This document shows, in pieces, positions 22,213 to 32,910 of a stretch of 64,000 nucleotides of DNA (its first letter is position 1; every line of letters begins with the position of its first letter). The notes below the pieces were generated by a model. That model was not told the DNA's origin, ran no database searches, and saw only the letters and a program-made list of their open reading frames with translations. The position numbers were made by a program, and so were the translations under genes. Origin of the DNA: Promicromonospora sukumoe 327MFSha3.1. GTDB taxonomy: Bacteria; Actinomycetota; Actinomycetes; Actinomycetales; Cellulomonadaceae. Location: positions 248,001-312,000 of the forward strand of contig NZ_ARQM01000011.1 of NCBI RefSeq assembly GCF_000385135.1, read 5' to 3'.

Positions 22213-22241
22213 TCGCCCCAGCAGACCCGGTCTCAGGCATC

Positions 22242-22265
22242 ATCGTTTTGCCCCCACCGCCCGTC
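22242..22265 (+). promoter_or_regulatory. ECF-type promoter, copy 1
   Basis: ATC, 17 bases, CGTC, the variant copy of the AAC-N17-CGTC motif found ahead of every unit of the sigma array. It lies 33 bp upstream of the fused sigma gene ATG. Confidence 0.6.
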
Positions 22266-22297
22266 GGAGAGGGTGAGAGGGAAAGGGGGCGTCACCG

Positions 22298-24049
22298 ATG
22301 GCGCAGTGGGAGAGCGAGCTCGAGGAGCTCATGGCGCGGCGGGGCCGCGCACTGGTGGGGTACGGGTACACGCTGTGCCGGGACCGGGGGCAGGCCGAGG
22401 ACCTGGTGCAGGACGCGCTGGTCAAGGTGTTCTCGCGGCTGCGGCGTCCCCGGGACATGTCCGGCACCGCCCAGGTCACGGACCTGGACCAGCCGCGACT
22501 GACCAACGCGGAGGCCTACGTGCGCCGGGCCATGCTGACCATCTACCTGGACGGCTACCGCCGGCAGACGAGCTGGACCGGCATCAAGCACCTGCTGGCG
22601 GACGACGACCGGGCGCCCGCCGCGGAGCGCGTCGCGACGGCCCGGGTCGACGTCGGCGTGGCGCTCGCCAGGCTCTCCCCGCGGCAGCGCGAGTCGGTGG
22701 TGCTGCGGTTCTTCGAGGACATGACGGTGCCGCAGATCGCGCAGACCCTGGGTACGAGCCCGGGCACCATCAAGCGGCACCTGTCCAACGCGATGGACCT
22801 GCTGCGCGACTCGCTCGCGGAGATCACGGTCCCGGAGATGGACACGACGCTGGACGAGCGGCTCGACGCGGTCTCTGGCCTGGTGCGCCGTCGCCGCGGG
22901 GTCAAGGTGGCGGCCATCGGCGGCGCCTCGCTGGTGGTCGCGGGCATGCTCGCCGTCGCTGCGCTGTGGGGGCCGTCGCGGCTCCTGTCCGAGCCGGTGG
23001 TCCCGGCCACGCAGAGCCCCGAGCTGTCCAGCGCCCAGGCGGGCGGGCAGGTGCCCAGCCAGTGGAGCGAGCACGGCCCGAAGTACCAGTGCGGCATGGA
23101 GGTCACGGAGCTGACGTCGACGTCGGACACGGTGGAGCTGGAGCTGACCGGCGACCTGGAGGTCGGCGAGTACGGCCTCACCGCGCCCGTCCGGATCACC
23201 CGGACGGACACCGAGGGCCCGGCGCTGGACGGCGGCGAGCCCATGCTGGTCTTCGCCCAGAACGGCCAGGTCGTCGACCTCGGGGCGGGCTGGCACGAGG
23301 GCGGCTACGTGCTGCCCGACGCCGGGAGGTCCCAGGATGACGTCGCCGGGGCCAGCGCGGCCACGGCCTGCGGCGACTGGACCATCGGCATGGTCGCCGA
23401 GACCTACCTGGAGCCGCGGCCGGCCGGCACCTACGACGTCTACGCGGTCATGCCGTGGACCGACTTCGAGGACCAGAGCGGGATGGCCGTCAGCGAGCCG
23501 GTCACCATGGAGGTCCCGGAGGTCGATGTCGAGGCCGAGGATGCGCTGACCGTCGACATCCGCGACGGCTACCAGCCCGAGTGGCTGGCGGGCACGGACC
23601 TGACCTGCGGCGCCCACGCCTCGGACATCCCGGCCGGCCCGCACCTGCCGTGGGAGCGGTCGGGCCTGTCGCTCGGCGACGCCTCCGACGGCGACGACGC
23701 CTTCACGCCTAACGGCAAGGTCCGCGTCGTGTTCACCGAGCTCCGGGGCAAGGTCGTCGACACGACGCGCACCCCGGTCACGCTGGTCTGGATCAGCGCC
23801 GGCGGGCAGGTCGTCGGGGTGGGCCGCGACGTCTGGTCCGAGCCGGCGGAGCCGCTGCGGCTCCAGCCGAAGGGCACGCAGATCCTCGACGTGCCGCTCG
23901 AACCCGACACGACCTGCCTGACGCACCCGGAGGAGGGCATGCCCGACGGCACCTACGTGCTGTACGCCCTCACGCAGCTCGACCCCGGCGCTGACGGGGA
24001 GCCGCAGTACGTGGCCGCGGAGGCGTCCGTCCACATGATCGGTGAGTGA
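22298..24049 (+). CDS. ECF sigma factor fused to a membrane-anchored extracellular domain
   Basis: The first 175 residues are a SigE-family ECF sigma factor: region 2 (LVGYGYTLCRDRGQAEDLVQ) and region 4 (LSPRQRESVVLRFFEDMTVP then QIAQTLGTSPGTIKRHL). The same frame continues through an Arg-rich stop-transfer (VRRRRGVK), one membrane helix at about 203-224, and roughly 355 extracellular residues. The ectodomain has two lobes, each with paired Cys and shared motifs (QNGQVVDLGAGWHEGG; IRDGYQPEWLAGTDLTCG). In the three neighbouring loci the equivalent sigma and membrane proteins are separate overlapping genes, so this is a true fusion. An in-frame ATG at 22838 marks where the second gene would begin and could give a separate product, although its ribosome binding site is weak. 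The predicted topology tethers the sigma domain at the inner face of the membrane. No ZAS zinc anti-sigma motif is visible. Confidence 0.85.
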   Translation: MAQWESELEELMARRGRALVGYGYTLCRDRGQAEDLVQDALVKVFSRLRRPRDMSGTAQVTDLDQPRLTNAEAYVRRAMLTIYLDGYRRQTSWTGIKHLLADDDRAPAAERVATARVDVGVALARLSPRQRESVVLRFFEDMTVPQIAQTLGTSPGTIKRHLSNAMDLLRDSLAEITVPEMDTTLDERLDAVSGLVRRRRGVKVAAIGGASLVVAGMLAVAALWGPSRLLSEPVVPATQSPELSSAQAGGQVPSQWSEHGPKYQCGMEVTELTSTSDTVELELTGDLEVGEYGLTAPVRITRTDTEGPALDGGEPMLVFAQNGQVVDLGAGWHEGGYVLPDAGRSQDDVAGASAATACGDWTIGMVAETYLEPRPAGTYDVYAVMPWTDFEDQSGMAVSEPVTMEVPEVDVEAEDALTVDIRDGYQPEWLAGTDLTCGAHASDIPAGPHLPWERSGLSLGDASDGDDAFTPNGKVRVVFTELRGKVVDTTRTPVTLVWISAGGQVVGVGRDVWSEPAEPLRLQPKGTQILDVPLEPDTTCLTHPEEGMPDGTYVLYALTQLDPGADGEPQYVAAEASVHMIGE

Positions 24050-24074
24050 GCTGCCCGGTCGAGGCGGGCCGACC

Positions 24075-24098
24075 AACGATTCCTCCCCGGTGCGCGTC
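24075..24098 (+). promoter_or_regulatory. ECF-type promoter, copy 2
   Basis: AAC, 17 bases, CGTC, 50 bp upstream of the second sigma gene. GATTCC follows the AAC, as in copy 3 (GGTTCC). Confidence 0.65.
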
Positions 24099-24147
24099 AT
24101 GGGGTGTGTGGAGACGATGACAGCACACACGCACCGGGGAGGTGGCC

Positions 24148-24720
24148 ATGGCGGGGTGGGAGACCGAGCTCGATGAGCTCATGAGGACGCGCGGGAGCGC
24201 GCTGGTCCGCTACGCCTACATGCTCTCCGGCGACCGCGCCCTCGCCGAGGACCTGGTCCAGGACGCCCTGGTGAAGGTCTACTCGCGGCTGCGCCGGCCC
24301 GGTCGCGGCGGGGTGGGCGTGGCCGCGGGGAGCAGGGCGCACGATCTCGACTCCCCGTTCACCAACGTGGAGGGCTACGTGCGGCGCGCGGTCCTGACCA
24401 TCTACCTGGACGGCTACCGCAAGCGGCAGCGCTGGTCCGGCATCAAGCACCTGCTGGCCGACGACCCCAGCACCCGCGGCGCCGACCAGGCGGCGTCGGC
24501 CCGTGTCGACGTGATGACGGCGCTCGCGAAGCTCGGCGCCCGGGAACGCGCCTGCGTGGTGCTGCGCTACTTCGAGGACATGACGGTGCCGCAGATCGCC
24601 GACGCCCTGGGCACCGCCCAGGGCACGGTCAAGCGGTACCTGTCCGACGCGACCAAGAACCTGCAGGAGATCCTGCGCCCCGACGACTTCCGACCTGCCG
24701 AAGGGAGGGCCGCCCGATGA
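24148..24720 (+). CDS. SigE-family ECF RNA polymerase sigma factor
   Basis: The 190-residue protein has sigma-70 region 2 (LVRYAYMLSGDRALAEDLVQ) and region 4 (RERACVVLRYFEDMTVPQIA then DALGTAQGTVKRYL). A Gly-rich linker of about 15 residues separates them. The ATG at 24148 is preferred over GTG 24142 because GGGGAGG lies 5-6 bases upstream of it. The stop overlaps the next gene by ATGA, the usual arrangement of an ECF sigma with its membrane regulator. Its own promoter carries the array motif, so autoregulation is likely. Confidence 0.92.
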   Translation: MAGWETELDELMRTRGSALVRYAYMLSGDRALAEDLVQDALVKVYSRLRRPGRGGVGVAAGSRAHDLDSPFTNVEGYVRRAVLTIYLDGYRKRQRWSGIKHLLADDPSTRGADQAASARVDVMTALAKLGARERACVVLRYFEDMTVPQIADALGTAQGTVKRYLSDATKNLQEILRPDDFRPAEGRAAR

Positions 24721-26435
24721 GTCACGACGACCTGAACGACCGAACCGGCCAGAACGACTTCCTGAGCGGTGCGCTCCATGGCGCAGCCGACGCCATGCCC
24801 GGTGGGGAGGCGAACGACTTGCACGTCTCGTTCGGAGTGGTGCGCGACCGTGTGCGGCGCCGTCGTGCAGTCAAGGTCGGCGGCCTCGCCGGCGCCAGCC
24901 TGGCGGTGGCGGGCGTGCTGGCCTTCGGCCTCACGCAGTCGCCGGTGTGGGACAGCGAGCCGGTGCTGCCCGGGACGCCCAGCGAGAACGTGGCCCCGAA
25001 CCGGTCGGCGGAACCGACCAGCGAGCCTTCGGGGCCGCCCGCGACGAGCGTGATCCAGGACGGGTACGTGCCCTCGTGGATCAACGACCTCGACGTCGGT
25101 CTGTCGTGCGGCATGCCGGCGGAAGACCTGGAGACGACGGCGGCCGGCTGGTCGTCGACGTCGATCGGCGACATCTACTCCGTGACCTCGGAGCTGGACG
25201 GCGAGCCCTCGACGAGTCTGGGCATGGCCGCGACCGTCGAGGGGCCGGCGGACTGGTCGCTGCCCGCCCCGCCGGTCCTGGTCTGGAGCCAGGGCGGCGT
25301 GGTGGTGGACCTGGGGATGAACGTCTTCGAGGGGCCGGTTCTGCGCGAGCCGCTGGTGGGTTCCGTCGGCAACGCGACCGAGGCGCAGGGCATGGAGTTC
25401 ACCACCTGCGCGCCCCGCGAGTCCGAGACGCAGGACGGCTTCGGGACGCGCCTGCCCGAGGGCGACTACGAGGTCCGGGTGGTCGGCTTCCCGCAGTCTC
25501 CCGCGGGCCAGTGGGAGACGGCGGTGAGCGAGCCCGTCACCGTCCACATCGACGCCGACGGCGCGCACAGCCCCACCGGAACGCGCGGCGGCGACGCGAC
25601 CGCCGAGCCGCCGGAGCGCGTCGAGGGCGAGCTCACCCGCATGGTCCTGGACCGCAGCACCCGCTGGGTCTCGGCGCAGGAGACGCATTTCGGGTACATC
25701 ACGACCGGCACCCCGGTGATCACCGCCGAGTGCGAGAGCACCAACCCCGAGGACGAGGTGTCGATCGAGGCGGTGCGCCCGTCCACCGACGAGTCGTTCG
25801 CGACGTTCGACGTCCCCTGTGATGGTGAGCCGTTCGTGTCGGACCCCGTGGTGGGCGGTGGCGAGGAGGAGGTCATCGACATCCGGCTGGCGAACGTGCC
25901 CGACGGCGTCGCGCGGTTCTGGGCGACCCTCGCCCCGGGCACGGGCGACGGCGGGAGCGGCGACGCCGCCGGGGCCTGCTCCGCGGACGGCCTCGACTCT
26001 TCCTTCGACCCGGCGAACGCGCCCAGCGAGGCTGCCGGGGCGACCGCGGGAGCCATCGTGGAGGCAGCGCTGGCCTGCGACCAGGACCGGCTCGTCGAGC
26101 TGGCGACCGAGTACCCCACGGAGCTGATGATCCCCGCCCAGCCCGCAGAGCAGGTGTTCGCCCTGCCCGAGGACGACTCGCTGCACTACCTGACGCTGGT
26201 CGGGCTCCTGGCGGGCACGCAGGGGGCCGACCAGGGGGAGGGGACATTCGTCTGGCCCCGGGTCGCGACCGAGGAGTTCCGCGAGTCGGACGAGGCCTGG
26301 CAGGAGGTGGTGGACGCGGGTGTGCTCTCGCCGGGGGACGCCGACGCGCAGCGCGCCGAGGGGCTCGGCTACACGGGGCTTCGGATCGCGATCGACGACG
26401 CCGGCAACTGGCGGTACTACTCGGCCACCCCCTGA
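24717..26435 (+). CDS. Single-pass membrane protein with extracellular domain, putative sigma regulator
   Basis: A cytoplasmic head of about 50 residues ending in RVRRRRAVK is followed by a membrane helix (53-72), a Pro/Ser/Glu linker and a large extracellular part. The ectodomain motifs are shared with the paralogues in this array: IQDGYVPSWINDLDVGLSCG, VLVWSQGGVVVDLG, LPEGDYEVRVVGFPQ, AVSEPVTV and DGAHSPT. A C-terminal extra domain of about 150 residues (from SADGLDSSFDP) is unique to this copy. Position and overlap with the sigma gene point to an anti-sigma or sensor role. The cytoplasmic head lacks a zinc-binding HxxxCxxC motif, so any sigma contact must use another mode. Function is inferred. 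Confidence 0.75.
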   Translation: MSHDDLNDRTGQNDFLSGALHGAADAMPGGEANDLHVSFGVVRDRVRRRRAVKVGGLAGASLAVAGVLAFGLTQSPVWDSEPVLPGTPSENVAPNRSAEPTSEPSGPPATSVIQDGYVPSWINDLDVGLSCGMPAEDLETTAAGWSSTSIGDIYSVTSELDGEPSTSLGMAATVEGPADWSLPAPPVLVWSQGGVVVDLGMNVFEGPVLREPLVGSVGNATEAQGMEFTTCAPRESETQDGFGTRLPEGDYEVRVVGFPQSPAGQWETAVSEPVTVHIDADGAHSPTGTRGGDATAEPPERVEGELTRMVLDRSTRWVSAQETHFGYITTGTPVITAECESTNPEDEVSIEAVRPSTDESFATFDVPCDGEPFVSDPVVGGGEEEVIDIRLANVPDGVARFWATLAPGTGDGGSGDAAGACSADGLDSSFDPANAPSEAAGATAGAIVEAALACDQDRLVELATEYPTELMIPAQPAEQVFALPEDDSLHYLTLVGLLAGTQGADQGEGTFVWPRVATEEFRESDEAWQEVVDAGVLSPGDADAQRAEGLGYTGLRIAIDDAGNWRYYSATP

Positions 26436-26498
26436 CCCCCGCCTCGTGACCGCCGTCGGCTGCCCGGCGGTGTCGTGAAAAAGTTCGGCTCGTGTCCC

Positions 26499-26522
26499 AA
26501 CGGTTCCTGTGCCCCGCTCGTA
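26499..26522 (+). promoter_or_regulatory. ECF-type promoter, copy 3
   Basis: AAC, 17 bases, CGTA, 48 bp upstream of a short leader ORF and about 92 bp upstream of the third sigma gene. Confidence 0.6.
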
Positions 26523-26569
26523 TCTGTGTGCGAGCGGGGCACAGCCGCGCCGGGCGAGGGGAGCAGGAC

Positions 26570-26617
26570 ATGAGCGGGCAGCGGATCCGACGACGGCAGG
26601 GCCGGGGCGCGGGATGA
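26570..26617 (+). CDS. Possible 15-codon leader peptide overlapping a sigma gene
   Basis: ATG at 26570 has a strong ribosome binding site (GAGGGGAGCAGG) while the sigma gene that follows has a poor one. The small frame encodes MSGQRIRRRQGRGAG and stops at a TGA that overlaps the sigma ATG (ATGA at 26614-26617). This arrangement would couple sigma synthesis to translation of the leader. It could also be chance, or a false start. Confidence 0.35.
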   Translation: MSGQRIRRRQGRGAG

Positions 26618-27165
26618 GCGCGCGGTGGGACGAGGAACTCACCGAGCTCGTCACGAGCAGGGGGCGCGCCCTCGTGGGGTACGGGTACGCGCTGACCGGT
26701 GACGTGCGCCGGGCGGAGGACCTGGTGCAGGACGCTCTCGTGCGTGTCTTCCGCCGGTTCCGCCGCCCCGAGGCGGCGGGCGTCGAGGGGCGCACCGAGT
26801 TCCCCCTGACCGACGAGGGCAGCCGGGCCGGTATCGAGGCGTACGTGCGCCGCACGATGCTCAACATCTACTTCGACGAGACGCGGCGCTTCGCGCTGTG
26901 GCGCAAGGCGCAGCCCAAGGTCGCGACGGCGGGCGAGGTGAAGGCGCCGGCGTCGGACATCACGGCCCGCGCCGACGTGACGGCCGCGCTGCGCGGCCTG
27001 TCCCCGCGGCAGCGCGCCTGCGTGGTGCTCCGCTACTACGACGACATGACGGTGCCCCAGATCGCGACCACGCTCGGGGTCGCACAGGGCACCGTCAAGC
27101 GACACCTGGCCGACGGCATCAACGCGCTGCGTGGGGTGCTGGCGACGGAAGGAAACCTCCTGTGA
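26614..27165 (+). CDS. SigE-family ECF RNA polymerase sigma factor
   Basis: The 183-residue protein has region 2 (LVGYGYALTGDVRRAEDLVQ) and region 4 (LSPRQRACVVLRYYDDMTVP then ATTLGVAQGTVKRHL). The ATG at 26614 was chosen because sigma homology starts at SARWDEELTEL; upstream in-frame ATG 26509 falls inside the promoter. Translation may be coupled to a short leader ORF. The stop overlaps a GTG start of the next membrane protein. Confidence 0.9.
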   Translation: MSARWDEELTELVTSRGRALVGYGYALTGDVRRAEDLVQDALVRVFRRFRRPEAAGVEGRTEFPLTDEGSRAGIEAYVRRTMLNIYFDETRRFALWRKAQPKVATAGEVKAPASDITARADVTAALRGLSPRQRACVVLRYYDDMTVPQIATTLGVAQGTVKRHLADGINALRGVLATEGNLL

Positions 27166-28175
27166 GCAGGCACGACGACCCCGGGTTCGACGACCTCGGC
27201 CCCGGCCGCGACGTCCTGAGGCAGACCATCGACGCGCTGGTCGACGGCGCCACCCCCCGGGGCCTGCCCAGCGTGCCGGAGGAGAACCTCGGCCGCCTGC
27301 GGCGCAGGGTGCGCACCTGGCGCATCGCCAAGGCCGGGGCGGTCGGGGTGGGTACGGCGGTCGTGATCAGCGCGCTCGCCTTCAGCGCCGCGGAGGCCTC
27401 GACCTGGACGCGGACGGAGCCGCTGCCCGGACGGCCCACCATCCAGAGCACCGACTCCGGTCCGGTGCCCTCGCAGGTCCCGACGACCCTCCTGTCGCCG
27501 GGACCGACGGCGAGCCCGTCGCCGTCTGCCTCGCCGTCGCCGTCCCCGTCGCCTTCGCCTTCGGACGTACCCGTCGGGGAGCCGACGCCGGACGCGAGCG
27601 CGTCGTCGGCCTCTGTCGACCCTGCCGACCTGATCACCGCGCCGTTCGACGACGGGTATCGGCCGTGGTTCGACGCGTATCCCGTGTGGTGCGGCATGTC
27701 CGAGGACGACCTCGTGTCGGTGAGTCCGACAGTCTCGATCGAGATCGTCGGCGAACTGACATACGAGCGCGGCCGGGGTGGGACCATCCCGGTCAGACTC
27801 TCGGGGGAGATGCCGGGCTATGTCGACCCGTCCGACGACTCGGAGTTCGACGAGGTCATCGCGGACGACGCGCTCCTGATCTGGTCACAGGGCGGGCGCG
27901 TGGTCGACCTGGGTACTTACTGGCACGAGGGCAACGACGAGATCCCGCCGGCGCTCAACGACACGGGAGAGTGGACCGGCCTGGCGTACGCGCAGCATTA
28001 CACCAGCTGTATCGAGGCCGACCTGATCGAAGGTCTGTCCGGTTACGACAACGAACGGGCGGCCGGCACGTACCAGGTGCGGGCAGCGCAGATGCACAGC
28101 ATCGGCCGCATTGGACACGACGACGCGCTTCAGTACCTGGTTCTGAGCGAACCCGTGACGGTGACGATCCCCTGA
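27162..28175 (+). CDS. Single-pass membrane protein with Ser/Pro linker and extracellular domain, putative sigma regulator
   Basis: The 337-residue protein has a cytoplasmic head with RLRRRVRTWRIAK, a membrane helix at about 57-77, a Ser/Pro repeat linker at about 110-130 and a short version of the array ectodomain (FDDGYRPWFDAYPVWCGM; LLIWSQGGRVVDLGTYWHEG; a single C-terminal Cys in YTSCIEAD). It keeps one lobe only, matching the first lobe of the fused protein at 22298. GTG start overlaps the sigma stop. The downstream half has lower GC than its neighbours. Role as sensor or anti-sigma is inferred from context. Confidence 0.72.
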   Translation: MSRHDDPGFDDLGPGRDVLRQTIDALVDGATPRGLPSVPEENLGRLRRRVRTWRIAKAGAVGVGTAVVISALAFSAAEASTWTRTEPLPGRPTIQSTDSGPVPSQVPTTLLSPGPTASPSPSASPSPSPSPSPSDVPVGEPTPDASASSASVDPADLITAPFDDGYRPWFDAYPVWCGMSEDDLVSVSPTVSIEIVGELTYERGRGGTIPVRLSGEMPGYVDPSDDSEFDEVIADDALLIWSQGGRVVDLGTYWHEGNDEIPPALNDTGEWTGLAYAQHYTSCIEADLIEGLSGYDNERAAGTYQVRAAQMHSIGRIGHDDALQYLVLSEPVTVTIP

Positions 28176-28184
28176 CTCCGAACG

Positions 28185-28226
28185 TGTCAGATGCTCAGGT
28201 CACTCCAGGGACCTGAGCATCTGACA
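28185..28226. repeat. 42-bp palindromic element (intergenic copy)
   Basis: Perfect 14-bp arms (TGTCAGATGCTCAG and its complement) around 14 bp, extended by ACG/CGT outside. It lies between two convergent genes and touches the stop codon of the MpaB-like gene. Confidence 0.9.
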
Positions 28227-28228
28227 CG

Positions 28229-29665
28229 TCAGGAGCGTTCCGGTCGGTAGGTCGCCAGGATCGCCCGGCTCCGGCGTCGGCCCCGGCGGTCGAGGCGCTC
28301 GCGGCCCCCGGGGAGCCGGCCGACCACGCGGTACCGCCACGTGTTGAGCGGCAGCAGGTACGCGTGCGCCCATGGCGGGCGCACCGGCAGGCCGAGCTCG
28401 CGCATGCTGCGCACCCCGAGGAACGCCGTCAGCATCGACAGCAGCCGCTCCCGCTCGAACCGTGCCCGCGCCGGCTGCCACCATGCCGGCCCGCGGTAGG
28501 ACCGCTCGGCCTGGGCGGCGACCACGGCCCGCGCCAGCCGCGGCCCGGCGTCCGAGATCCCGGCCTGCGCGAGCAGCACGTGCTGGTTGAGGCGGTGGCG
28601 CGCCCACTCGTCGTCGACCAGGAAGTCGGGGTGCACGCCCAGCAGGCGCCCCACCCACTTCCACAGGTGCATCAGCGCCCGGCTGTCCGACGGCGGGACG
28701 GGCACCCCGAGCGCGCGGCACCCCAGGATCAGCGTGCCGTCGAACAGGCCGAGCGTCGCCGCCTGGTCCGCCTGGTTGATCGGCAGGCCCCAGCGGGCGG
28801 TGTCCCAGCGGGCCGTGTCGGTGCCTCGCCGGGCGGCAGCCGGGCCCGAGGCGCCCGTGCTGCCGAGGCTCCCGCCGCCCGGATCGTCCGGCGGTTCGGT
28901 GAACGACGCCGCGACCAGCGCGTGCATCACCCGGACGTGCACGGTGGCGCGCCAGGCCGGGCCGAACGGCCGCAGCGCCCCGGGCTCCGTCAGCCCCACG
29001 GTCCACTCCTGGGTCTCGGAGAGCCGGCGCAGCGTGCCGCCGGTCAGGGCGCCGGTCGCCGCGAGCAGATCCGTGGGCCCGCCGAACCGGTACCCGCCCA
29101 CGAGCGAGAGCTGGAGCAGCACGTCGGCGGCGTTCTGCCCCAGCCGCCGCTGCACCGCCGCCCCCTGCTCGACGAGGTCCCAGTCCACCCAGGAGGGCAC
29201 GGCGGTGACCTCCCCAAGGAACTCCTGCAACACCTGGGGTTGCCCTTGCTGGCTGGCCCCTTCCCGCCGTCGGGAATTGAGATCGCTCGGTTGCATCGAG
29301 ACCGGTCCGTCAACCGACCGGTCTCGATGCAACCAACCGATCTCATCTGCGCCGCCAGCGCCAGCGCCAGCGCCAGCGCCAGGGGCAGGGGCAGCGAGCG
29401 CCGCCCGCAGCATCGCGTGCGTGACCCGGCCCTGGGCGCCCGCGGGCAGGCGCATGGCGGCGGCGAGGGCCGCCCCGGCGTCGTCCTGCTCGAAGAAGGC
29501 GCGGCCGATCCGGTCGAGGAGGGCCTCATCGACGCCGCGGACCCGGCCGAGCACGCGCAGCGGGCGGCCGATCCGCACCCCGCGGGCCTCGGCGGAGCGG
29601 AACCGGAGCGGGTACGCGGGGGCGCGCCCGGCGTCGTCCACAGGGTTGTCCACCGTCTCGGCCAT
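28229..29665 (-). CDS. Oxygenase MpaB family protein (DUF2236)
   Basis: The 478-residue protein belongs to the DUF2236 family, which includes fungal MpaB and is related to latex-clearing heme oxygenases. Recognisable stretches are VPSWVDWDLVEQGA, GGYRFGGPTDLLAATG, WRATVHVRVMHALV, LPINQADQAATLGLF and LMHLWKWVGRLLGV. The substrate in bacteria is unknown. The ATG at 29665 starts the homologous region. Two oddities stand out: an (AP)GAGAGAG stretch coded by GCCAGC repeats (29350-29385) and an in-frame 68-bp palindrome (29278-29345). It interrupts the sigma array on the opposite strand. Confidence 0.78.
   Translation of the reverse strand: MAETVDNPVDDAGRAPAYPLRFRSAEARGVRIGRPLRVLGRVRGVDEALLDRIGRAFFEQDDAGAALAAAMRLPAGAQGRVTHAMLRAALAAPAPGAGAGAGAGGADEIGWLHRDRSVDGPVSMQPSDLNSRRREGASQQGQPQVLQEFLGEVTAVPSWVDWDLVEQGAAVQRRLGQNAADVLLQLSLVGGYRFGGPTDLLAATGALTGGTLRRLSETQEWTVGLTEPGALRPFGPAWRATVHVRVMHALVAASFTEPPDDPGGGSLGSTGASGPAAARRGTDTARWDTARWGLPINQADQAATLGLFDGTLILGCRALGVPVPPSDSRALMHLWKWVGRLLGVHPDFLVDDEWARHRLNQHVLLAQAGISDAGPRLARAVVAAQAERSYRGPAWWQPARARFERERLLSMLTAFLGVRSMRELGLPVRPPWAHAYLLPLNTWRYRVVGRLPGGRERLDRRGRRRSRAILATYRPERS
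29278..29345. repeat. 68-bp palindrome inside the MpaB-family gene
   Basis: Arms of 30 bp with two mismatches (core GGTTGCATCGAGACCGGTC) and an 8-bp loop. It is read through as part of the protein (EIGWLHRDRSVDGPVSMQPS). It belongs to neither of the other families in the window. Confidence 0.85.
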
Positions 29666-29714
29666 GTCCTCATCCTGACCCGGACGGGTTCGGCGCGAAA
29701 AGGGATCCGACCCC

Positions 29715-29738
29715 AACTGTTCGCCGGACCGGGGCGTC
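29715..29738 (+). promoter_or_regulatory. ECF-type promoter, copy 4
   Basis: AAC, 17 bases, CGTC, 45 bp upstream of the orphan ectodomain gene. It is the only unit of the array with this motif but without a sigma gene. Confidence 0.65.
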
Positions 29739-29782
29739 ATAGGGGGTGAAAAGCAAGTACGCCAACTACCGGGGGAACAGAG

Positions 29783-30874
29783 ATGAGCCACGGAGACAAC
29801 CGCACGGACCACGGCACGCGCGCACCTCGCGGGCGGACGGCGCGGCTGGTCGGCGTAGGCGGCGGGGCGCTGGTCGCGGCGGGCGCGCTGGTGCTGGGCG
29901 CCACGCAGCTCGCGACGCCGGGCCTGGCGGCGCCGCTTGCCACCTATGACCCGCAGGCGGCGTCGGACGTCGCGCAGCGCGACGTCCCGCAGCCGGACCT
30001 GCTGACCGGGACGCCGCTGCGGTGCGGCGCGAACCTGGCCGACCTGAGCTTCGGCAAGGACGTGACGCTCGCCGCCACCGGCGACCTGACCACGGAGTCG
30101 GTGTACTACGAGAGCGAGTGGTCCACCCATGACTCGCTGCCGCTGCGGGCGGCCGACGCCGACGGCGCGGACGCCTCGGAGAACGACCTGAACTCGCCGA
30201 CCCTGGTCTGGGTGGACGAGGACGGCACGGTCGTGGACCTGGGCGGCTGGGAGAAGTACCCGATGTACCTCACCCGCGAGGACAGCGGCCCGACGGCGCA
30301 GGAGGACCGCACCTCGTCGTGCGCCCCGGACGACGCCGAGCAGTGGCTGCCCGACGGCGAGTACACGGCCTACCCGATGACCATCGAGTACTCGAGCGAC
30401 ACCCTGGTGGCGGGCGCCCCGCTGCCGGTGACCGTCGAGGACGGGGAGCCGCGGTGGGCGGCCGGCGGCCAGGAGGCGCCGGTGCCGTTCGAGCTGCCGG
30501 GCGACCCGGACCAGACCCTGCTCCCGGACCGCGGGTTCGGCAGCGTGGTCGTGGACCGCACCGGCACGTGGGAGCGTCGCGACACCTACCGCGCCGTCTG
30601 GCCGGATGGCGAGATCACCGAGGGCGAGGGGTACGTGGTCCAGGCGCGGTGCACGTCGTCCGACCCGGGGGACAGCATCACCTACGCGCTGTCCGGCACG
30701 TGGGGCGACGTCGCCGGCGAGATCCGGTGCGACGGCCACGACCGCACGGACGGCACCTGGGGCTACCAGGCCCCCGACGTCCCGGGCGAGCCGGTCGGCA
30801 TCGAGCTGACCGACGTGCCGGACGGCGTCGCGCTCGCGTACGCGCGCCTGGTCCCGGCCTCCGTGGCGGGCTGA
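29783..30874 (+). CDS. Orphan single-pass membrane protein with array-type extracellular domain
   Basis: The 363-residue product has a short cytoplasmic head, a membrane helix at about 22-42 (or an uncleaved signal anchor) and a two-lobed ectodomain with four or more Cys (LRCGANLADLSFGKDV; LVWVDEDGTVVDLGGW; a final VQARCTSSDPGDS and EIRCDG). The pattern parallels the partner proteins of the sigma genes, yet there is no sigma gene next to it. The shared promoter makes it a likely target or accessory of one of the array sigmas. A cleaved, secreted form is possible, since ATPGLAAPLA after the helix resembles a signal peptidase site. Confidence 0.7.
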   Translation: MSHGDNRTDHGTRAPRGRTARLVGVGGGALVAAGALVLGATQLATPGLAAPLATYDPQAASDVAQRDVPQPDLLTGTPLRCGANLADLSFGKDVTLAATGDLTTESVYYESEWSTHDSLPLRAADADGADASENDLNSPTLVWVDEDGTVVDLGGWEKYPMYLTREDSGPTAQEDRTSSCAPDDAEQWLPDGEYTAYPMTIEYSSDTLVAGAPLPVTVEDGEPRWAAGGQEAPVPFELPGDPDQTLLPDRGFGSVVVDRTGTWERRDTYRAVWPDGEITEGEGYVVQARCTSSDPGDSITYALSGTWGDVAGEIRCDGHDRTDGTWGYQAPDVPGEPVGIELTDVPDGVALAYARLVPASVAG

Positions 30875-30879
30875 CCCGG

Positions 30880-30970
30880 CCGAACCACACCGGTCGAGCC
30901 TGACCACGCAGGTCGAACCACGCCGGTCGAGCCTGTCGAGACCCCCGGGTCCCGGCAGGCTCGACCCGTG
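30880..30970. repeat. Cluster of GTCGAGCCTGTCGAGACC-type repeats (intergenic)
   Basis: Three full or partial copies of the family whose core reads CGGTCGAGCCTGTCGAGACC, in both orientations, fill the gap between the orphan ectodomain gene and the fourth sigma operon. Confidence 0.8.
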
Positions 30971-31011
30971 TCCGGGCAGTCCCGGCCCGCAGTCCCGCAG
31001 AATCGGTCCAC

Positions 31012-31035
31012 AACCTCCTGGCGCCCTGGTTCGTC
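31012..31035 (+). promoter_or_regulatory. ECF-type promoter, copy 5
   Basis: AAC, 17 bases, CGTC, 32 bp upstream of the fourth sigma ATG. Confidence 0.65.
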
Positions 31036-31066
31036 GACACGGTCAGGACGGCAGGAAGGAGCCGGA

Positions 31067-31660
31067 ATGGGCTGGCACGAAGACCTGGAGCTGCTCGCCA
31101 CCCAGCGGGGTGGCGCGCTCGTCGGGTACGCCTACACGCTGTGCGGCGACGTGCGGCAGGCGGAGGACCTGGTGCAGGAGGCACTGGTCAAGTACTGCTC
31201 GCGGCTGGTCGGGCGGGGCGGACGACGACGCCGGGCGGCGTCGGGCGTGTGGGCGGTACCCCTGGACGGGGCGGACGGCGCAGACGGCGGCGACGGCGCG
31301 CGGGCGCCGCAGCACCCCGAGGCGTACGTGCGCCGCATGGTGCTGAACCTGTACCTGGACGGCTGGCGCCGCAGCCGGAAGTGGGCGGACATCGCACCAC
31401 GCGTGGCCGTGGAGGACGTGCGGTTCCCCGACTCGGGCGTCACGGCCCGGGCGGACGTCGTGCACGCGCTGACCCGGCTCACGCCGCGGCAGCGCGCGAG
31501 CGTGGTGCTGCGCTACTTCGAGGACATGACGATCGCGCAGGTCGCGGACGCGATGGGCACCGCGCCCGGCACGGTCAAGCGCTATCTGCACGACGCCATG
31601 CGCACGCTGCGCGACGTGCTCGAACCGGTGGAAGCGACGACGGAAGGGAAGCGGCGATGA
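31067..31660 (+). CDS. SigE-family ECF RNA polymerase sigma factor
   Basis: The 197-residue protein shows region 2 (LVGYAYTLCGDVRQAEDLVQ) and region 4 (LTPRQRASVVLRYFEDMTIA then VADAMGTAPGTVKRYL). A Gly/Asp/Ala-rich linker of about 30 residues joins them. The ATG at 31067 follows AGGAAGGAG. The stop overlaps the ATG of the partner membrane gene by ATGA. Confidence 0.92.
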   Translation: MGWHEDLELLATQRGGALVGYAYTLCGDVRQAEDLVQEALVKYCSRLVGRGGRRRRAASGVWAVPLDGADGADGGDGARAPQHPEAYVRRMVLNLYLDGWRRSRKWADIAPRVAVEDVRFPDSGVTARADVVHALTRLTPRQRASVVLRYFEDMTIAQVADAMGTAPGTVKRYLHDAMRTLRDVLEPVEATTEGKRR

Positions 31661-32910
31661 ACCGGCACGACGAATCCAGGGACCACGACCACGGCTGGGC
31701 CGATCCCGGAGGGACGGACCTCCTGGCCCAGACCCTCGGCGCGATGGCGGGCGGCGTCGACCCGGCGTCCCCGACAGGGCCTGCGGCGGCGCTGACGACT
31801 ATGAGCCGGCGGGTGCGGCTGCGCCGGGGCGCCAAGCTCGGCGGGCTCGGCGGGGGAGCGCTTGCGGTGGCGGGTGCCTTGGTGCTCGGGGCCGCACAAC
31901 TGGTGCCCTTGGACCAGCCTGAGACGCTGTTGCCGGGGGCGACGGCGCCCTCGCCCGTGGAGCCCTCCCCGTCGTCGTCCGGGCCGGACCTCCAGATCCA
32001 GGACGGCTACCAGCCCTCCTGGCTCGAATGGAGCGATCTGACGTGCGGTATGCAGGTCGCCGACCTGGAGTCCACGGCGCCGGGCTGGTCGGTCGAGGTG
32101 GCCGGCGACATCTATGACCGGCCAGCCGATCTCGGCGGCGGCGAATCCGTGACGGTGCGGGGTTTGGCGGCGACGGTCCAGCAGGGGGACGGGGTGCTCC
32201 AGGGGGCCCCCGTGCTGGTGTGGAGCCAGGGCGGCGTGGTGGTCGACCTGGGCGACGACGCCTTCGAGGGGTCGGACCTGCGGGCTCCGCTGGTCGGTTC
32301 CGGTGCGGACGTGATCGAGGCCAAGGGGGGTGCGTCCACGACGTGCGCGCCCAGCGGGACCGGTGAGAGCACCAGCTTCAAGACACCGCTGCCCGAGGGC
32401 GACTACGAGGTACGGGTGGTCGCCTTCCCACAGGCTGCGTCCGGCGGGTGGACGACGGCGGTGAGCGAGCCGGTGCCGGTCCGGATCGACTCCGACGGTG
32501 CACACAGCCCGACCAGGGCGCGTGGTGGCGAGTCGGCGATCGAGTTCCCGGAGCCGGTCGGCGGTCAGGTCGCGCGGTTCGAGCTGGATCGCACCACCGA
32601 CTGGGTCACCGCGGAGCTGACCCAGCCCGGCTACTCGTCCGACACGCCGATGCGGGTCATGGGCCAGTGCGAAGGACCGGACCCGGAGGCCACGCTGCCG
32701 ATCGAGGTTGTTCTGTGGCCCATGGGTGAGGTGCTCGCGTCCACCCAGATCAGCTGCGACGGGGCCGAGGCGGGGAGCGAGGTCGACCTCCAGACAGGCG
32801 AAGGGGCGATCATCGACATCCGGCTGCCGAGCATCCCGGACGGGGTCGGGCGGGCCTGGGTCTCTCTCGAACCGGCCACGCCCCAGGGCGGAGACACCGC
32901 GGGCGAGTAG
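31657..32910 (+). CDS. Single-pass membrane protein with extracellular domain, putative sigma regulator
   Basis: The 417-residue product has a cytoplasmic head ending RRVRLRRGAK, a membrane helix at about 62-82 and a two-lobed ectodomain. It is clearly a paralogue of the 24717 gene product: IQDGYQPSWLEWSDLTCGM, VLVWSQGGVVVDLG, LPEGDYEVRVVAFPQA, AVSEPVPVRID, DGAHSPT and VTAELTQPGYSSDTP all align. It lacks the extra C-terminal domain of that paralogue. Overlap with the upstream sigma gene suggests a regulator or sensor of that sigma. Confidence 0.75.
   Translation: MNRHDESRDHDHGWADPGGTDLLAQTLGAMAGGVDPASPTGPAAALTTMSRRVRLRRGAKLGGLGGGALAVAGALVLGAAQLVPLDQPETLLPGATAPSPVEPSPSSSGPDLQIQDGYQPSWLEWSDLTCGMQVADLESTAPGWSVEVAGDIYDRPADLGGGESVTVRGLAATVQQGDGVLQGAPVLVWSQGGVVVDLGDDAFEGSDLRAPLVGSGADVIEAKGGASTTCAPSGTGESTSFKTPLPEGDYEVRVVAFPQAASGGWTTAVSEPVPVRIDSDGAHSPTRARGGESAIEFPEPVGGQVARFELDRTTDWVTAELTQPGYSSDTPMRVMGQCEGPDPEATLPIEVVLWPMGEVLASTQISCDGAEAGSEVDLQTGEGAIIDIRLPSIPDGVGRAWVSLEPATPQGGDTAGE

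Follow-up and report, generated by a model that had tools for sequence, protein, structure and literature searches.

An array of SigE-type sigma factors and paralogous single-pass membrane proteins in Promicromonospora sukumoe: probable self-amplifying sigma/anti-sigma modules

We have analysed a stretch of 64,000 nucleotides (positions 248,001 to 312,000 of contig NZ_ARQM01000011.1, hereafter called the window) from the 6.25 Mb genome of Promicromonospora sukumoe 327MFSha3.1. Between positions 22298 and 32910, the window carries an array of four extracytoplasmic function (ECF) sigma factor genes and five membrane proteins, called S1 to S4 and E1 to E5 (Table 1). One of the four sigma factors is coupled to its membrane partner by fusion and the other three by a 4-bp gene overlap, and the fifth ectodomain protein, E4, is without a sigma factor. 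This architecture, with its pairing and its overlaps, is read directly from the sequence. We consider it probable that the array represents parallel, self-amplifying sigma/anti-sigma modules that sense the envelope or polymers outside the cell and in which a short head of two helices on the membrane protein acts as the anti-sigma factor.

The cytoplasmic head of the partners is central to this reading. The paired partners share one layout: the N-terminal head is cytoplasmic and is followed by one transmembrane (TM) segment and, via a linker, by beta-rich domains on the outside. The head comprises ca 45-60 residues before the TM segment and is free of cysteine, and its residues R-V-R-x-x-R-x-x-K are invariant across the paired partners. 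The absence of a ZAS zinc motif, as claimed in a preliminary description of this DNA, is borne out, as none of the 42 sigma-paired split partners (17 loci, window included) has a cysteine within the first 80 residues. The uncorrected pN/pS ratios (proportions of nonsynonymous over synonymous differences) of the heads in classes 2, 3 and 5 are 0.27, 0.35 and 0.35, to be compared with 0.17, 0.22 and 0.37 for the sigma factors and 0.61, 0.90 and 0.61 for the first ectodomain unit. That is, the heads evolve nearly as slowly as the sigma factors, and the ectodomains diverge much faster. In the AlphaFold model of E5, the head forms two helices with a block pLDDT of 77-78, dropping to 47 toward the membrane.

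At the 17 loci whose starts are resolved, 41 of the 42 paired split partners have a possible start within the final sigma codon (37 ATGA and 4 GTGA), and the remaining one overlaps by 1 bp; of the available starts, the one nearest to this point was chosen in each case. Five partners without a sigma factor were also found, namely E4 of the window and those at loci L057, L063, L022 and L061. In E4 and the lone partners of L057 and L063, the N-terminus is short and basic, and the TM segment begins at residue 22-35, versus 49-67 in the paired partners. The protein starting at 29783 (E4), described previously as standing alone, indeed has no sigma factor and is additionally headless. The lone partner of L022 looks exported, perhaps as a lipoprotein, and the start of that of L061 is ambiguous. 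The L022 unit (L022:1474-2250) is a stand-alone ectodomain unit whose N-terminus resembles an export signal and which has a SigE-type element; it is located two open reading frames (ORFs) downstream of what we take to be a uvrA-like gene.

The conservation of the head, close to that of the sigma factor, the headless lone partner of the window and the natural sigma-TM-ectodomain fusions all argue for a physical link between the two proteins. They speak against an alternative in which the membrane protein is a co-activator or an envelope effector, merely a co-transcribed target, while the sigma factor is controlled mainly at the transcriptional level, like SigE by CseBC. This alternative can draw on the SigE and SigQ factors of ECF39, which PMC8999054 places under two-component systems, and on the existence of lone ectodomain genes with a promoter element, but we judge it to be unlikely.

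We next consider the promoter-like elements. Alignments upstream of the sigma start show conserved blocks for each class. In the window, an AAC-N16/17-CGTC-type element precedes modules 2, 3 and 4, with CGTA in module 3; in module 1, CAAC is replaced by CATC. The strict pattern NCAAC-N17-CGT[AC] is present in 13/13 S2 (all at -75), 9/11 S3 and 13/13 S4 modules, and in 21 of the 25 modules from other genera, against a background of 1.2% in 20,000 random 135-bp windows from the same loci. For TCATC-N17-CGTC, found in all nine class-F1 modules, the background is 0.4%. The wider pattern (CAAC or CATC)-N17-CGT, which was defined after the F-class sequences had been inspected, occurs just upstream of 85 of the 87 modules, versus 3.3% of random windows. 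Locus L082 was left out of these counts, its upstream region repeating that of L097, and several of the other-genus rows are near relatives (e.g. L103/L104), meaning that the counts are not independent. An element is also found before the lone ectodomain genes of L057, L063 and L022, and elements of AACC type lie near the first possible starts at other SigE-type loci of the genome. According to PMC6767563, targets of S. coelicolor sigmaE, such as sco2334, have the same promoter layout. The array elements can be described as SigE-type promoter elements, and their recognition by the array sigma factors is predicted.

Module 3 has in addition a perfect 10-bp inverted repeat, which is a candidate operator or 5' RNA hairpin. 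It is conserved in 11/11 species, and in two of them a T-A pair is changed to C-G.

The promoter variants mostly track the sigma clades, and the S2-type and S4-type elements keep with the S2-type and S4-type sigma factors in another genus. This bears on whether the modules cross-talk, that is, whether one or two sigma factors act on all the promoters, with the ectodomains signalling into a shared pool. The CAAC-N17-CGT core common to the S2, S3 and S4 promoters would allow it; the promoter flanks and -10 variants are, however, class-specific, and this specificity, like the keeping together of element and sigma types across genera, makes cross-talk of this kind unlikely. That each ectodomain would feed its own sigma factor, as the preliminary description had it, is supported by the class-specific heads, the translational overlap and the class-specific promoter elements.

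Outside the array, the stringent pattern has seven matches in the genome and the S4-type pattern one, out of totals of nine (two within the array; reversed-pattern control 0) and two (one within the array), respectively. Among these eight non-array matches there are elements upstream of an L,D-transpeptidase with a PG_binding_1 domain, of an S8 subtilase and of a putatively secreted protein without a Pfam match. The elements of L116, L120 and L123 look like promoters; the one of L123 also lies inside a longer open frame, the start used being an ATG 120 bp downstream. L119 is doubtful, since its element is 77 bp before a 61-residue ORF and 259 bp before a protein with a penicillin-binding protein (PBP) dimer domain. 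The matches of L117, L124 and L126 are inside ORFs, and that of L118 is without a clear gene. Three or four of the eight thus precede genes for cell-wall or exported proteins, which fits envelope and secretion functions, and the strict matches are too few to define a regulon.

Of the sigma factors themselves, all four match regions 2 and 4 in Pfam, the region-2 match of the fused one (23.3 bits) being slightly below the cut-off of 24, and the top NCBIfam model for all four is TIGR02983 (SigE-fam_strep), at 107-127 bits. In the NCBIfam comparison none of the four reaches the TIGR02983 cut-off of 141.55 bits. Their pairwise identities are 47-62%, and additional residues past region 2.2 accompany the shorter Pfam region-2 match. 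SigE-type sigma factors are common in Actinobacteria, and the host genome is rich in sigma factors, with 49 sigma-70 region-2 matches; the TIGR02983 cut-off is passed at eight of its other loci. Ten sigma factors at its other strong SigE-type loci (L001-L009) each have a fused or 4-bp-overlapping partner in which a short N-terminal part is followed by a hydrophobic segment, and one such partner (L001:1394-2530) has a PASTA domain at its end. Among eight SigE-type loci taken from a large, distant genome, six were parsed: three have an apparent overlapping single-pass partner, and for the other three none was found. The combination of sigma factor and membrane partner is hence wider than the array, and the local novelty lies in the ectodomain family and its tandem expansion.

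As to the membrane proteins, each array partner has a single strong hydrophobic segment, consistent with the single-pass topology proposed earlier. Their ectodomains contain a repeated unit with two invariant cysteines and a W-x-x-x-G-x-V-V-D-L-G-like stretch; there are six such units across the five proteins, the fused protein having two tandem copies. BLASTP among the five proteins gives E <= 0.001 in at least one direction for 9 of the 10 pairs (best 6e-92, for E2/E5), which together with the Pfam and NCBIfam matches of the sigma factors confirms the description of four SigE-type sigma factors with five paralogous ectodomain proteins. For the E3/E4 pair no BLASTP match at E <= 1 was obtained, and both are recovered, by construction, with the five-protein profile. 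The motifs SQGGVVVDLG, EGDYEVRVV and DGAHSPT, put forward previously as shared, are literal in the proteins starting at 24717 and 31657 (E2 and E5) and degenerate in the other three. A second beta domain is common to E2 and E5, and E2 has a third one. In other species this third domain is frequent in class-5 partners and a similar domain occurs in two fusions, so that the parts of the ectodomains appear to be shuffled among partners.

Neither Pfam nor NCBIfam has a family that fits the ectodomains (in Pfam, E2 and E4 have no match, and E3 and E5 only chance-level sub-threshold matches to other families), nothing convincing was found among PDB sequences (best E 0.2), and a plasmid search with the ectodomain gave no match. 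The ectodomain of the E5 model is confident, and its VIA-align comparison yields middling matches only (best Z 6.7), Ig/FnIII-like for the first unit and close to CBM36/CBM6 and TNF-like folds for the second domain. The two units of the fused model can be aligned, as a tandem, with the tandem domains found in V. cholerae RbmA (4kkq_A, Z 8.0, root-mean-square deviation 13.9, 190 residues aligned), and one unit with 5g50_B (Z 7.7, root-mean-square deviation 4.5, 107 aligned). Since Z values below about 8 may reflect a common arrangement, carbohydrate binding by the ectodomains stays a lead. A BsuPI-like fold may be considered as well; it has no Pfam match and is absent among the listed structural matches.

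It is useful to compare the array with known systems. SigE/ECF39 (S. coelicolor SigE; TIGR02983) is the nearest sigma model and shares the AAC-N16/17-CGTC promoter layout; the array sigma factors differ in scoring under the family cut-off and in having an adjoining or fused membrane partner each. SigE of S. coelicolor is controlled via CseBC and CseA according to PMC8999054. Class I (ZAS) anti-sigma domains are described in PMC7406223 as having an Hx3Cx2C zinc signature and about 101 +/- 33 residues, in contrast to the Cys-free heads of ca 45-60 residues here. The same paper describes the class II factor CnrY as two helices wrapping the sigma factor, without a zinc signature. The array head resembles it in being short, zinc-free and, with moderate to low confidence in the E5 model, two-helical; no sequence match to such a factor is among the PDB matches listed for the head profile at E <= 10. 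In the class II layout, helix 1 is on sigma domain 4 and helix 2 on domain 2, a point on which the fused model of the array is uninformative.

In ECF48, ECF52 and ECF53 (SCO4117) of Actinobacteria, the sigma factor is likewise joined via a TM helix to an extracellular part. These fusions are described with a zinc-finger domain (PMC8999054), whereas residues 175-205 of the array fusion (P0001) contain neither Cys nor His and give no zinc-finger match in Pfam. The SigI/RsgI system of Clostridium thermocellum also comprises many paralogous sigma/anti-sigma pairs with differing extracellular sensing parts. SigI, however, belongs to a different sigma group, and the array contains no Pfam match to an RsgI domain of the RsgI_N type, as would be expected for such an anti-sigma factor.

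Clustered matches to the array are present in all 12 other Promicromonospora genomes searched, and sigma and membrane genes co-occur there and in other genera of the family. The loci of the genus hold three to seven sigma modules, with one to four fused copies followed by the split classes 2, 3 and 4 in order. Class 2 is found at 13/13 loci. Class 3 is present at 11, the exceptions being L055 and L062, and class 4 at 12, including one disrupted copy; it is missing from L059, whose stretch stops at the contig end. The 26 fused sigma factors of the genus form one group (SH-aLRT 99) in a quick tree built without three fusions from other SigE-type loci (L002, L003 and L006), which suggests a single fusion event for this class. 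The S4 gene of L053, with an in-frame stop, was excluded from the tree and from pN/pS, and the extra S4 of L060 from pN/pS. In P. umidemergens, the S4 orthologue (L079:9402-10004) is split by an in-frame stop, and its partner is open.

The variable copy number, the in-frame stop in one S4 orthologue and a sigma fragment in one array copy (L052) are what one would expect if the array were a tandem duplication that is neutral or in decay, with few modules still working. With pN/pS values of 0.17-0.37 for sigma factors and heads, elements in nearly all modules and the above retention of classes 2, 3 and 4 across the genus, we regard this possibility as very remote indeed.

Beyond the genus, the unit profile finds 49 of 221 genomes of the bacterial family, in 12 of 25 genera, at E <= 1e-4. 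At the order level (E <= 1e-8) it finds 3 of 297 genomes, namely that of the window and two further members of its family, and at the phylum level (E <= 1e-6) only the window's own among 296; that is, no ectodomain unit was found outside the family in the order- and phylum-wide samples. The whole-partner search gives weak matches in two genomes of other families (G044 and G048), covering only head, TM and linker positions, and sigma ORFs are present in the corresponding stretches (L069-L071). Of 20 stretches from distant family members, 16 contain one or more sigma ORFs that overlap an ORF with the unit, and nearly all of these show the head and TM pattern (the pattern for L112 is not displayed); L108 and L115 are without a sigma factor, and L109 and L111 have a weak one. 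These four, together with L068-L071 (sigma factor, no ectodomain match) and the unpaired third sigma factor of L107, were excluded from the module counts. At L108:1997-6096, in another genus, three headless ectodomain genes stand in tandem without a sigma gene.

The preliminary description stands on both points on which it could have failed, since no named family in Pfam or NCBIfam matches the ectodomains and the sigma and membrane genes are found together in relatives. The data agree with its view of a signalling module that has been duplicated, in which distinct sigma factors have distinct ectodomains as partners. Among the titles and abstracts listed in literature searches on Promicromonospora sigma factors, ECF39 and fused or membrane-linked systems, none describes the array, although an earlier mention in the main ECF reclassification is possible. 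New here are the conserved Cys-free heads, the promoter elements of each module, the element of the lone gene and the outside matches near cell-wall and export genes.

From these observations we infer binding and sequestration of the sigma factor, proteolytic release, feedback, the reading of its own promoter by each sigma factor and a class of ligand, in the following way. Each module would consist of a SigE-type ECF sigma factor and a single-pass membrane protein, coupled by the 4-bp overlap or by fusion. The Cys-free head, with two predicted helices ending in R-V-R-x-x-R-x-x-K, would be the anti-sigma factor that retains the sigma factor at the membrane, and the fused version would tether it covalently. 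The fast-evolving beta-sandwich ectodomain would sense cell-envelope damage or an extracellular polymer. A change outside would then lead to proteolysis or release, and the free sigma factor would transcribe its own module from the AAC/ATC-N17-CGT element, giving positive feedback, as well as a small set of genes for envelope and secreted proteins. The lone ectodomain protein, headless and with its own element, would be a target gene product acting as decoy, buffer or co-receptor.

It has to be stressed that several observations weigh against this proposal. No anti-sigma domain is matched by sequence in Pfam or with the head profile against PDB sequences; for the profile of 11 heads, no anti-sigma chain is among the matches listed at E <= 10. 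(Its top PDB matches, designed helical proteins with E 6e-4, were taken as composition.) The linker helix 185-196 of the fused model has low confidence, so that the natural fusion is uninformative on the docking of the head on the sigma factor. None of the 26 modules of the fused classes matches the strict CAAC pattern, and TCATC-N17-CGTC is found in only 4 of the 17 class-F0 modules. No element was found before the lone ectodomain of L061 or the three of L108, where the starts are ambiguous. Flank bases other than those of the S2-type and S4-type elements are less orderly, with 20 changes on the tree for the two bases before CGT; moreover, since each promoter sits next to its gene, common descent can by itself make the variants follow the sigma clades. 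Finally, ten further loci of the same genome score at least 117 bits with TIGR02983, and the matches outside the array could serve those other SigE-type sigma factors.

The features of the array are collected in Table 1. The array also encloses an MPAB/Lcp-type oxygenase gene, a homologue of which lies inside the array at 12/12 other loci of the genus.

Table 1. Features of the sigma factor array, in coordinates of the window.
Feature	Position	Strand	Remarks
Module 1 promoter-like element TCATC-N17-CGTC	22240..22265	+	-58 of fused gene; class F1 9/9 at -58 to -60
S1/E1, fusion of sigma factor and single-pass protein, the latter with two ectodomain units in tandem	22298..24049	+	583 residues
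Module 2 promoter-like element CCAAC-N17-CGTC	24073..24098	+	-75 in 13/13 orthologues
S2, SigE-type ECF sigma factor	24148..24720	+	Pfam, NCBIfam matches
E2, head, TM, ectodomain unit, second beta domain, C-terminal domain	24717..26435	+	ATGA overlap with S2
Module 3 promoter-like element CCAAC-N17-CGTA	26497..26522	+	Orthologues: strict pattern 9/11, wider 11/11
Module 3 inverted repeat TGCCCCGCTC/GAGCGGGGCA	26510-26541		Overlaps -10 part of promoter-like element; 11/11 orthologues
S3, SigE-type ECF sigma factor	26614..27165	+	Pfam, NCBIfam matches
E3, head, TM, ectodomain unit	27162..28175	+	GTGA overlap with S3
MPAB/Lcp-type oxygenase gene	28229-29659	-	Within array, unrelated to sigma/ectodomain genes
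Promoter-like element CCAAC-N17-CGTC of lone ectodomain gene E4	29713..29738	+	At -70
E4, lone membrane-anchored ectodomain protein, no sigma factor, no cytoplasmic head	29783..30874	+	
Module 4 promoter-like element ACAAC-N17-CGTC	31010..31035	+	Class-S4 modules 13/13 at -57 to -59
S4, SigE-type ECF sigma factor	31067..31660	+	Pfam, NCBIfam matches
E5, head (predicted helices 19-31, 42-65), TM, ectodomain unit, second beta domain	31657..32910	+	ATGA overlap with S4

The best-studied SigE-type sigma factor is described as being under two-component rather than anti-sigma control (PMC8999054). With a conserved short head in split and fused partners and one element per module, a direct binding or reporter test is possible. 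The array may also offer natural orthogonal sets of sigma factor, promoter and anti-sigma factor, and it illustrates how sensors diversify rapidly while the intracellular core stays constant. In more general terms, and tentatively, many actinobacterial SigE-type sigma factors might be held by an unnamed minimal, zinc-free two-helix anti-sigma head of ca 45-60 residues, split or fused. The array would then be the most expanded form of this arrangement, with several insulated self-amplifying channels whose sensors evolve fast and a regulon that includes headless decoy sensors.

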